Made by a program: the position numbers and the translations under genes
The notes under the pieces: model-generated
Database searches by the model: none
Seen by the model: only the letters and a program-made list of their open reading frames with translations
What the model was told of the DNA's origin: nothing
Part shown: positions 24,069 through 30,690 of the stretch, piece by piece
Numbering within the stretch: the stretch's first letter is position 1
Layout: the number at the start of each line of letters is the position of its first letter
Assembly (NCBI RefSeq): GCF_021155765.1
Contig: NC_060109.1
Span: forward strand, 5,729,001-5,793,000
Source of the DNA: Diprion similis
Taxonomy: Eukaryota > Arthropoda > Insecta > Hymenoptera > Diprionidae
Direction: 5' to 3'
DNA length: 64,000 bases

Positions 24069-24432
24069 ATGGCACATTGTATACCAGCCGACTGTTTGAT
24101 AGGATGCGAAATTGCTCAAGAAATGATACGGCGCAACATCATAAATCGCGACACGATCAAATCATATTCCCGTAACATCGGAGACGTAATAGTAACACGG
24201 TACAACGATGTCAAGATTTTCAATATGATAACCAAACAGCGATAAAAAACCTACGTACCCCGACATGTATAGAACTCTACGAACCTTAGCATTAAAATTA
24301 AATTCAGAAAACTGCCAGACACTCTCAATACCAAAATTAGGCTGCGGACTAGATAGCTTAGACTGGAAGATCGTCAAAATAATGATCTACCACATTTTCC
24401 GACACTGAGATGTTCAACTCAATATTTGCTTG
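24069..24432 (+). pseudogene. RE1 macro domain 1 (ADP-ribose binding/hydrolase fold, OARD1/TARG1-like)
   Basis: Macro domains bind ADP-ribose and, in the OARD1/Poa1 group, remove it from proteins or from ADP-ribose-1''-phosphate. The signature is complete in order: A-H-C-I-P-A-D-C at 24072-24095, a G/A-I-A-Q-E helix, G-D-V-I-V, I-F-N-M-I-T-K at about 24215-24237, K-P-T-Y-P, then the binding loop P-K-L-G-C-G-L-D-S-L-D-W near 24330-24368, ending D-V-Q-L-N-I-C. A one-base frame change sits at about 24240 and a TGA at 24406-24408. The Asp of GCGLD, catalytic in OARD1, is present. It lies between RNase H and integrase, an unusual place for any cellular-type domain. Confidence 0.8.
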
Positions 24433-24712
24433 TTCGAAAGAAATCAAAACGCCGTACCCGACTCGAACAATGACATTATAGACTTACCAGAACAAACGAC
24501 AAGTAACGCGCAGCTGAAACGATACAAATCAAACGAAGCGACACACAACACATTCGAGTGTGCTACAGGCCCACCTGATGCCGACGTCATAGCTGATAAC
24601 CGGAATCATGCTGCACCCACACCCGCCTGCTCTCATTTTCAGCCTCGGCAACATGATCCCGTCAACGCACCACTACAGCTGACAAACATATTCGAAAGAA
24701 ACGACGACATCT
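24433..24712 (+). CDS. RE1 linker between the two macro domains
   Basis: About 95 codons, Asn/Asp/Thr/Pro-rich and without structure-forming pattern, in the same frame as the second half of macro domain 1. It ends at N-D-D-I, where RE2 inserted. The codon split by the insertion resumes in phase at 30292, next to macro domain 2. The short R-N-D-[DN] motif just before each macro domain suggests that linker plus domain were duplicated together. Confidence 0.6.
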
Positions 24713-24957
24713 TGTAAAACGTGGCCTAGAAATTTTTGTGACGGCCCTGCGGGGACCGAGAGCGCTGCGATCGCAAGTACATGGAGAGGGGCGAAGTGAG
24801 AGCAGTTCGATGCCGGCCTTATGAGAGGCAACATCTCTGCGCCAAACATTTTCAATTTCTTTATAACTATATCGTTCCCTTTTTCTTATCTTAAAATAAA
24901 CGTTCACGTTCATTTACCCAGTGTACAATTCATTATCCTGACAATTCATATCCTAAA
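24713..24957 (+). repeat. RE2 5' LTR
   Basis: Starts TGTAAAACG and ends near CCTAAA. The exact end is ambiguous by two bases because the next AT is shared with the duplication. An AATAAA-like signal (AAAATAAACG) lies at about 24893. A TGGGATC sequence about 10 bases downstream may be the tRNA primer site. Confidence 0.9.
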
Positions 24958-25598
24958 ATTCAGAAGTGGGATCAGTGAGGAACGTGCAACGCCACAAAGA
25001 GGAACGAGTGTTACGAATAGACAATTTTACGTGAAACGGCAGCGTGTGCTCAGTTACGATTTATGATTTATGTTGTGAGCCACAGCATCGAATTTATGTT
25101 ACCGAGTTATGTTCAATCGGGGTCTGACGATACTGTGAGAGAAAAGAAAAACATTAAGTGAAACATTTCGGGCGTGATAGTGACGAGACGGGCTCGTTCG
25201 TGTGTCGAAGATCGAGAAAGTTCGTTATCCGCCATTTTAGTCGTGTGCGCGTTGTAACGGTCGTGAAGAGGCGTCGTTCGAGAAGTTTCTCCGCGTGGCA
25301 CGTCGCGAAGTCCGGTAAGTTACCGACGGTCGAGAGTGTAGTGCTGACATCTACCGGACGCAGCGGGTAAACAGTTCGGTGCGTCGTGACGAACAGCCGA
25401 TACGGTGCTTATGTTATGTTTAATCTATACGAGTCGATTCGTGTGTGACGCGATCGACATTTATGAGAGAATTGCTGCTCACGGCATTTATGATAAATAA
25501 CGCGATCCAATTTAGTCGTTAATACTGTCGTGCGTGTTGTGTTACGAGTCGAAAAAAATTTTGAACCGCAGTACTGAACAATCGTCCGCGCTTGTACC

Positions 25599-27887: not shown

Positions 27888-29850
27888 GACGCTTTCGGAT
27901 AACCTCTTGGAGTTGCGACTCGACAAGTGTTTTTTTCTTCAGACGGAAGTAGCATACTTGGGGTATATGGTTTCGGAGCAGGGCGTAAAACCGACGAAAA
28001 ACGGTATCGAAGCAGTCGAAAGATTTCCGATTCCCGGAAGCGCTCGTGACGTGCGTAGCTTCCTCGGGCTTTGCTCGTACTTCAGAAAATTTATCGCAAA
28101 CTTCGCGGCAATTGCAAAACCCCTTTATGATCTGACGAAAGCGAACGCGACGTTTTGTTTTGGGAAAACGGAGTACCGCGCTTTTGAAACACTCAAAGTG
28201 AAACTCACAGAAGCTCCGATTTTAGCGGTTTACAACCCAAACGACTACACAGAATTGCATTGTGATGCGAGTTCGGCGGGGTTTGGGGCCGTACTTATGC
28301 AGAAGAAAACCGACGGTAAAATGCATCCGGTATTTTATTATTCGAGACGGACGACAGAAAGCGAATCGAGATTACACAGTTTCGAACTCGAAACCCTCGC
28401 GATCGTCTATGCCTTGGAAAGATTCCGTATTTATCTTCAGGGATTAAAATTTAAGATTATGACCGATTGTAATGCCGTTACGATGACGCTCAAAAAGAAA
28501 GACGTAAACAGAAGAGTGGAGCGATGGGCACTCGTTTTGCTCAATTACGATTACGAGTTAGAATACCGAGCGGGTACACGTATGCGTCACGTGGACGCCC
28601 TCAGTCGAACTATCGGGATAATCGAAGAAAATCCTTTCGAATGGAACGTTACAGTATGTCAGGCGCAAGGTCCAAGAATTGTCGAGATTCACGCTGAACT
28701 TGAACGATCGGAAAGTAAGTTTTATGAGATGAGAAACGGCCTCGTATACCGTAAATATGGAGAAAAGTTGTTGTTTTACGTGCCGGAACAAATGGAGAGA
28801 AACGTCTTGTATAAGTATCATGACGAGTTCGGTCATCTTGGTGCCGAAAAGTCGTCTCCAGCGATTCTCAAGAATTATTGGTTCCCAAAGCTTCGCGAGA
28901 AAGTAGATAGTCACATTAAAAATTGCCTTAAGTGCATTACGTTTTCACCAGTCAGCGGGAAAGTCGAAGGCCAGATTCATTCGATTCCCAAAGGCAATGT
29001 TCCTTTCGGTACCATACACGCCGATCATTTGGGGCCAATAGATAAGAAGCATCTAGTCAAGCAGCATCTGTTGGTTGTAATCGACTCTTTCACAAAATTT
29101 GTAAAACTTTATCCGACGAAAACAACGTCTAGTAAGGAGGCGATTAACAGTTTGCAACAATATTTCGAGCATTATTCACGACCAAAAACGCTTATTACCG
29201 ATAGAGGTAGTTGCTTTACGAGCACAGATTTTGAAGAGTTCATGAAACAAAACGGAATTCAGCACATTAAGATCGCGACGGGCTCACCGCAAGCCAATGG
29301 CCAAGTAGAAAGGGTCAACCGGACTCTAACGCCGATGTTAGCCAAACTCTCAGAGAATTCCGCGGGCAAGTATTGATATAAGGTCATCGGGGACGTAGAG
29401 TATGCGTTGAATAATTCCGCGAGTAAAGTTACGGACGAGACACCAAGCCGGTTGTTATTCGGTATAAAACAACGCGAGAAAAACGTTGATAATTTACGCG
29501 ATTACGTATGCGACGAAAAAGAGCCAGAAAGAGCGGATCTAGACGAGATCAGAGAGCGTGCCGCTAATAGAATTTTGAGTTCGCAAACGTACAATAAGAC
29601 ATACGCTGATAAAAAGCGCAAAGAAGCGCACGAGTATTCCGTAGGAGACCTAGTCTTGATTAAGAATTTCAACAGTACGACCGGAGCAGCACATAAGCTC
29701 AAACCTGCGTTTAAGGGTCCGTACAAGGTCGCCAAAAAACTCGAGAACGATAGATATAAGGTCACAGATGTGGACGGGTTTCAAAATACCCAGCGGCCTT
29801 ATAGTGGTGTCTGGCAAGCGGCGAATATGCGGCCGTGGCGACGAGTGTAA
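27862..29850 (+). pseudogene. RE2 pol: RT thumb, RNase H, integrase
   Basis: Continues the same polyprotein in the next frame. RT connection (VAYLGYMV), RNase H (DASSAGFGAVL, F-E-L-E-T-L-A-I-V, M-T-D-C-N-A), integrase zinc finger H-H-C-C (near 28818-28940), the catalytic core with D in H-A-D-H-L-G-P near 29020, D in T-D-R-G near 29199 and E in Q-V-E-R-V-N near 29305, and a C-terminal F-K-G-P-Y-K-V (GPY/F) module near 29710. One TGA at 29374-29376 interrupts it. Otherwise it is intact to the TAA at 29850. Confidence 0.88.
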
Positions 29851-30046
29851 TAGTTTAAGAAAAAAAAAAAATGTATATTCCTTGTTAAATGCTCATAGTA
29901 TAAGTCAGAGAAAATATTCTTTGTTCAATCTCTGTAAAAGCGAGATAAAAATTAGTTTTAGTTGTTTATCTATGTATCGACGATCCTGTACTCTATGTTC
30001 AAGTTTGGTTCTGCCGGGGACGTCAGAAAGGTCAGGAATGGCCGAA

Positions 30047-30291
30047 TGTAAAACGTGGCCTAGAAATTTTTGTGACGGCCCTGCGGGGACCGAGAGCGCT
30101 GCGATCGCAAGTACATGGAGAGGGGCGAAGTGAGAGCAGTTCGCTGCCGGCCTTATGAGAGGCAACATCTCTGCGCCAAACATTTTCAATTTCTTTATAA
30201 CTATATCGTTCCCTTTTTCTTATCTTAAAATAAACGTTCACGTTCATTTACCCAGTGTACAATTCATTATCCTGACAATTCATATCCTAAA
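30047..30291 (+). repeat. RE2 3' LTR
   Basis: Matches 24713-24957 at 244 of 245 positions. It is preceded by a purine-rich GAAAGGTCAGGAATGG stretch, a possible polypurine tract. Confidence 0.9.
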
Positions 30292-30690
30292 ATCTTAATG
30301 ATGCAAGATAATTACGTACACTGTATGTCTGCAGATTGCATTTTAAGAAAGGGGGTTGGCAAACAATTACTAGACATTGGATATTTAAACTCAGAAACGC
30401 TACGAGCACAGGAACCAGAAGTAAAATCAGTGATCATTTCACCAATGAAGAAAATATTCATTTTCAGCCTCATTACAACAGAGAAATACTGCAATCGCAC
30501 GACGTTACAGACATTACGCGCGACATTACTCACTCTGCGAGAAATACTGTTCACAAAAAATATCAAATCATTCTTGATTTCAAAAATAGGCAGCAACTTC
30601 GATAAATTACATTGGCTAGCAATCAAAAATGTGAGTCGAGAGATATTTAATGAATCAGAAATTATAGTAACAATATGCCTTGGCGAGATT
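30292..30690 (+). CDS. RE1 macro domain 2 (degenerate ADP-ribose-binding fold)
   Basis: This segment aligns end to end with macro domain 1. V-H-C-M-S-A-D-C at about 30316-30340, G-V-G-K-Q-L, I-F-I-F-S-L-I-T-T at 30460-30485, the L-x-T-L-R-A-T-L helix, then I-S-K-I-G-S-N-F-D-K-L-H-W near 30578-30615 where domain 1 has L-G-C-G-L-D-S-L-D-W, and I-I-V-T-I-C at the end. The glycine/cysteine of the binding loop are replaced (GCGLD becomes GSNFD), so nucleotide binding may be altered or lost while the fold is kept. It runs unbroken into the integrase. The first codon is completed by the target duplication of RE2. Confidence 0.75.

Follow-up and report, generated by a model that had tools for sequence, protein, structure and literature searches.

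A stretch of 64,000 nucleotides of the Diprion similis genome (the window; contig NC_060109.1, positions 5,729,001 to 5,793,000 of the forward strand) carries RE1, an env-bearing Ty3/gypsy-type retroelement whose Pol region contains macro domains of the OARD1/TARG1 type. Judged by sequence, macro domains in Pol are a trait of a retroelement clade to which RE1 belongs. The explanation favoured here, to which we give about an even chance, is that this clade captured OARD1, with the copy beside RNase H (macro 1) acting as an ADP-ribosylhydrolase of Pol and a degenerate copy (macro 2) serving as an N-terminal extension of the integrase.

Macro 1, of the OARD1 type, occupies positions 24054..24438 on the plus strand, as do all features below unless stated otherwise; it keeps the TARG1 lysine position and GCGLD, and its end was placed from a sister copy. 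In the window copy it is broken: the reading frame shifts near 24242, and a stop codon stands at 24406-24408. Against a family profile that includes a sister copy of the same domain, its two parts score at expect values (E) of 2.5e-21 (24054-24242) and 1e-20 (24241-24405). The top PDB match of the N-terminal half (24069-24242) is OARD1, at an E of only 0.081, and the C-terminal half (24241-24405) matches OARD1 at 3.3e-7, followed by a macro chain of DarTG at 0.0018, with two further, weaker matches after it. Macro 2, at 30298..30687, lies immediately 5′ of the integrase zinc domain and has a degenerate catalytic loop, GSNFD, with T at the position of the TARG1 lysine. The segment 30298-30720 matched solely OARD1/TARG1 (C6orf130) chains in the PDB at an E of 10 or below (5 of 5 distinct sequences, best 5.3e-8). 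Among the solved families in the PDB search, OARD1 is closest to both domains in sequence and alone falls below 1e-3. These values confirm, at the level of sequence, that the segments which the initial annotation had matched to the OARD1/TARG1 macro pattern (24069-24432 and 30292-30690) are macro domains of this type, and the loop motifs reported for them, G-C-G-L-D in the first and G-S-N-F-D in the second, are present.

The comparison with Pfam Macro (PF01661) that had been proposed as a check was divided in its outcome: the C-terminal half of macro 1 gave an E of 0.022, under the curated cut-off, and macro 2 had no Pfam match at all, whereas sequence, profile, and fold searches were positive. 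Pfam as the sole criterion was rejected, as it missed macro 2 entirely. Above the gathering cut-off were macro 1 of another locus in the genome (L044) and three database proteins described below (P0007, P0008, and P0009); the window segments, the domains of loci L012 and L013, and L044 macro 2 were below it or without a match.

A third, degenerate macro domain, macro 0, is found in the interval between protease and reverse transcriptase (RT) at 20992..21384 (family profile E 7.2e-13; Pfam Macro E 0.063, under the cut-off). In a shuffle control the real sequence scored 6.6e-13 and the best of 2000 shuffles 0.19. Of eight sister pieces scanned, four contain macro 0 (L035, L137, L138, and L140); among the remaining pieces, L142 gave nothing, L139 and L143 showed no protease, and L141 showed RT with neither protease nor macro 0. 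Macro 0 was seen in RE1-type copies only. Clade-wide recurrence and, for macro 0, the 2000 shuffles exclude a chance match.

The domains recur throughout the genome of the window (G000, 269 Mb; L numbers denote its pieces or loci, and C numbers its contigs or copies). A macro 2 query, for which 150 of 220 candidates were scored, gave at least 150 matches. Merging pieces less than 150 nt apart and grouping matches on the same strand less than 2.6 kb apart yields 102 clusters, of which 45 have two macro matches. Of the 57 single-match clusters, ten were inspected: two macro domains are present in six, and just the integrase-adjacent one in the other four, which belong to a type with an 1896-aa frame (L042, L043, L050, and L051). 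In this 1896-aa type about 2 kb separates RNase H from the lone macro 2, a stretch that is rich in charged and polar residues in L042. Open frames of 1801 and 1841 aa contain both macro domains with no stop. The order RNase H, macro, macro, integrase, the recurrence of which the initial annotation had proposed to test, is found in other copies, these two open frames included. In the five element types read (the window, L012, L024, L042, and L044), 21-27 nt separate the end of macro 2 from the integrase match.

Recurrence was also assessed from the RT, by scoring 144 of 625 candidate matches and looking on the same strand for a macro match no more than 7 kb downstream. One was present for 88 of the 96 RT matches that are 60% or more identical to the RE1 RT (RE1 included) and for none of the 48 less similar matches (0/4 at 50-59%, where actual values were 53-57%, and 0/44 below). 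The macro lists are lower bounds, and therefore the misses may not all lack a macro domain.

The macro domains differ in their catalytic residues. The GCGLD loop is expected to hold ADP-ribose, and D125 is the second catalytic residue of TARG1. In rows that represent element types, the lysine corresponding to TARG1 K84 and the GCG[L/I]D loop are both present in all eight macro 1 rows; of the 11 integrase-adjacent macro 2 rows, two of them near-copies, none retains the loop and 6 retain the lysine. Macro 0 keeps neither. PMC8501950 names K84 as the catalytic lysine of TARG1 and reports that TARG1, and not its K84A form, rescued bacteria from DarT, a modifier of thymidine in DNA.

In the one pair of elements tested, the ratio of nonsynonymous to synonymous substitution rates (dN/dS) ranged from 0.035 for RNase H and 0.039 for RT through 0.078 for macro 1, 0.123 for the protease, and 0.181 for macro 2 up to 0.246 for the spacer; the macro 2 value is rough because of a high dS (1.28). 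Within this pair, the estimate shows macro 1 to be under apparent purifying selection, about threefold below the spacer. A structure model of macro 2 fits TARG1, and the segment that follows it fits residues 44-104 of the prototype foamy virus (PFV) integrase.

Relatives were sought with two region searches of a protein collection, each scoring about 8000 candidates, which returned six and four proteins. P0002, from Neodiprion virginianus, contains RT, RNase H, and macro 1. Two proteins come from Athalia rosae, which like Neodiprion is a sawfly: P0003 contains a macro domain, integrase, and a Baculo_F env, and P0007 contains macro 1, a weak macro 2 (0.005, by profile alone), and integrase. P0001 has three macro domains in one Pol, before the integrase, P0008 has macro 1 and macro 2, and P0010 has macro 2 only. 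P0009 is a separate long terminal repeat (LTR) element with integrase, a chromodomain, an OARD1-like macro domain, and then a rhabdovirus-glycoprotein match under the cut-off; its macro domain is possibly an independent capture. The same searches returned P0004-P0006, in which OARD1-type macro domains accompany DNA-ligase and BRCT domains; P0004 and P0006 represent 33 and 46 member sequences, respectively.

With regard to origin, the macro 1 profile matched 2519 proteins at 1e-6 or below, and the named ones among the 120 listed are mostly animal OARD1. The D. similis genome itself encodes a tandem pair of OARD1-like genes (C2:13509250-13512689; L162 and L163) with two exons each, both split at the same place, just past the catalytic-lysine region. 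Compared with these host genes, the retroelement domains lack the intron and several are degenerate. The initial annotation had proposed a tree against OARD1/Poa1 as a route to the donor. A tree built with the host genes and omitting winM0, L042_m2, and L013_m2 separates two macro 1 lineages: the 1700-type macro 1, together with P0007 and P0008, falls among cellular OARD1 near the host pair with weak support (81/50), and macro 1 of the 1801-, 1841-, and RE1-types falls outside the cellular OARD1 group. Integrase-adjacent rows lie on one side of a branch (99/97 for nine rows; 96/77 for 11 rows in another tree). One-clade tests, from which the same three sequences were dropped beforehand, did not reject a single origin of all gypsy macro domains (p 0.096; 0.058 with P0009; 0.123 for macro 1 against the hosts). 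The history may have been an older capture and then duplication, with macro 1 replaced later in one lineage.

The order of RE1 is gag fragment, protease, macro 0, RT, RNase H, spacer, macro 1, linker, macro 2, integrase, and env. The gag fragment (19691..20341) has CCHC zinc knuckles in two stretches (Pfam zf-CCHC 1.8e-7). The aspartic protease (20386..20667) was located by tblastn with the P0001 protease piece (1.2e-20; Pfam RVP 0.026, under the cut-off) and the RT (21661..22458) with the P0001 RT piece (2.7e-134; Pfam RVT_1 4.1e-32). RNase H follows at 22468..22926 (Pfam RT_RNaseH 1.2e-35; tblastn 3.5e-62), and the integrase, with H2C2 and core, lies at 30712..31731 (Pfam Integrase_H2C2 2.9e-21 and rve 3.6e-9), the tblastn match of P0001 reaching 31731. 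The order of protease, RT, RNase H, and integrase, together with the LTRs and short target duplications of other copies, is that of Ty3/gypsy elements (Metaviridae).

The claim of a tandem macro pair between RNase H and integrase holds for the order, which recurs, but the two domains are not adjacent in the window copy, where a nested gypsy-type LTR element fills the linker (24713..30291, with 4-5 bp target duplication). This element has RT, RNase H, and integrase, and its LTRs form a 247-nt pair (24713-24959 and 30047-30293) that is 99.6-100% identical. A SAP domain lies near the start of its gag-pol frame (25614-25715; Pfam 2.9e-9). It gave no macro match, and its RNase H and integrase matches are 183 nt apart. 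The nested element is missing from sister copies, in which 24713 joins 30292 directly (L013/L002 and others), and the gap between macro 1 and macro 2 in L013 is 276 nt. The 5.9-kb spacing in the window was rejected as native on these grounds.

A second insert of 13.9 kb with inverted terminal repeats (31766..45709, no strand assigned) stands between integrase and env. Its minus-strand frames 41150-42181 and 42497-43471 have no Pfam match at 0.001. The envelope gene, of the baculovirus F type (45710..47476; Pfam Baculo_F 5.4e-46), is 44% identical to the env part of P0003. In a comparison of 13 loci, one of them RE1 itself, 31765 is joined directly to 45710 in seven loci representing five copies (L003, L005, L007, L008/L011, and L009/L010). 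The env is RE1's own gene, because these sister copies join the integrase end to it, which also rejects the idea of an unrelated neighbour; it lies about 14 kb from the integrase because of the second insert. The initial annotation of an env-bearing gypsy element is therefore correct. RE1's own LTR pair was not found within the window, and this copy, with a frame change and stop in macro 1 and two inserts, is not intact and is dead. Elsewhere in the window, an inverted repeat of about 1.05 kb (55203-56249 and 57030-58083, 97.7% identical) encloses frames resembling a Penelope-type element.

Other copies are young and keep open pol frames. The LTR pairs of three copies are 99.8% identical over 444 bp, 100% over 2138 bp, and 100% over 2346 bp, one piece in the last comparison starting inside or at the edge of the LTR. 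Flanking repeats of 4 bp are readable beside the LTRs of the C12 and C14 copies. Matches to env occur about 1.2 kb downstream of at least six two-macro loci with 1801-type spacing (C7, C14, C8, C1, C10, and C6); the pieces downstream of the C12, C14, and C8 copies (L032, L034, and L038) gave no env match.

RE1 resembles errantiviruses and other env-bearing Ty3/gypsy elements in its gag-pol-env order, its gypsy-type RT, RNase H, and integrase, the Baculo_F-type env found in RE1 and other copies, and the 4-bp flank repeats of the C12 and C14 copies. Available text from the errantivirus and env-bearing gypsy literature found does not mention a macro domain, and the word "macro" is absent from an insect endogenous retrovirus (ERV) paper (PMC12992720) and from the Troyka paper (PMC12440569). 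OARD1/TARG1 (terminal ADP-ribose glycohydrolase 1) is itself a free cellular protein, unlike the RE1 domains, which lie inside Pol in one to three copies. A review (PMC4977317), citing Basta et al. 2009, places macro domain proteins in fish ERVs as additional open reading frames. These are alike in that a retrovirus-like element encodes a macro domain, but the RE1 domains lie within a Ty3/gypsy Pol, are duplicated, and in one case are joined to the integrase. The Ty3/gypsy-type order and domains of its pol, and the insect origin of its named relatives, set RE1 apart from epsilon-like fish retroviruses. Among the titles and abstract openings listed, a search of open papers (subscription papers and preprints lying outside it) returned none plainly on retroelements of this kind other than the review PMC4977317. 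On this literature there appears to be one precedent, in fish, for a macro domain in a retrovirus-like element, and it differs from the OARD1-type domains that recur within Pol throughout a gypsy clade. DarG-type macro domains are prokaryotic antitoxins according to PMC8501950, phage macro domains are genes on viral contigs, and neither kind was seen inside a retroelement. Scanning viral contigs yielded nothing with the L012 macro piece and a list of 80 loci with the macro 1 profile.

Macro domains are counter-defence enzymes in several RNA viruses, and the initial annotation suggested either counter-defence or structural reuse for the pair. The evidence fits a split between the two, with an enzyme-like macro 1 and a degenerate macro 2 joined to integrase. 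In the favoured explanation, the Pol of a Ty3/gypsy clade would have captured a cellular OARD1/TARG1 macro domain. Macro 1, beside RNase H, would most likely be a working, putative ADP-ribosylhydrolase carried in the particle, where it could strip ADP-ribose added by host poly(ADP-ribose) polymerase (PARP) from element proteins, complementary DNA (cDNA) ends, or integration-site DNA. Macro 2, fused to the integrase zinc domain and with its loop lost, would most likely be an integrase N-terminal extension, and macro 0 a further degenerate copy. The activity, substrate, timing, and benefit proposed here are read from homology, position, recurrence, the retention or loss of residues, and selection in one pair. 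Several observations weigh against the proposal: macro 2 and macro 0 are without the catalytic loop; the macro 1 loop is altered in at least one RE1-type copy (L008), as single copies decay; the dN/dS values come from one pair only, the open-frame 1841- and 1589-aa types; the macro 2 model has a mean predicted local distance difference test (pLDDT) score of 65.5; and the RE1- and 1801-type macro domains tested are below the Pfam cut-off or without a match. Furthermore, macro 2 stands alone in the four 1896-type loci inspected, and therefore an element type can persist without macro 1. A more specific form, in which macro 1 removes PARP-made ADP-ribose from cDNA ends or the strand-transfer site, ADP-ribosylation is an integration barrier in insects, and the dead second copy is part of the integrase, is a tentative suggestion and somewhat doubtful.

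Just as chromodomains may direct some gypsy integrases to heterochromatin, the macro domains may be readers rather than erasers, binding ADP-ribose and bringing integrase to ADP-ribosylated chromatin or DNA breaks. The 21-27 nt between macro 2 and the integrase match, and the adjoining chromodomain and macro domain of P0009, would suit such a role; however, we consider it unlikely, as the loop is gone from every one of the 11 macro 2 rows, and macro 1, which keeps the loop, also keeps the catalytic lysine. The degeneracy of macro 2 and macro 0, and the 1896-type loci with macro 2 alone, would also be expected if the domains no longer performed any ADP-ribose chemistry and acted as structural spacers or extensions of the integrase. 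This reading is unlikely, given the lysine and loop of macro 1 in every representative row and a macro 1 dN/dS some three times lower than that of the spacer in the pair tested. Some lentiviruses carry a dUTPase between RNase H and integrase, the same Pol position, and OARD1 chains in the PDB bear the name O-acetyl-ADP-ribose deacetylase 1; a metabolic accessory enzyme acting on ADP-ribose metabolites such as O-acetyl-ADP-ribose is nonetheless improbable. Two large inserts do interrupt the window copy, as might be expected of a local chimaera, or of an artefact of assembly, with no relation to the element, but the same layout is present on many contigs and in proteins from other genomes. Genome-wide recurrence (88/96 against 0/48 RT matches) rejects a local insertion or artefact, which is scarcely credible, and neither of the two outcomes that the initial annotation had set against its own claim, no macro match in a profile search or copies lacking both segments, arose in full.

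Ultimately, the macro domains of the RE1 clade point to a single host enzyme that was captured and then reshuffled within Pol, and provide a natural pair of an enzyme-like and a pseudo-enzyme domain in one polyprotein. ADP-ribose tagging may matter to how such elements copy or are resisted. This raises a testable question, namely whether ADP-ribosylation of protein or DNA limits reverse transcription or integration in insects.

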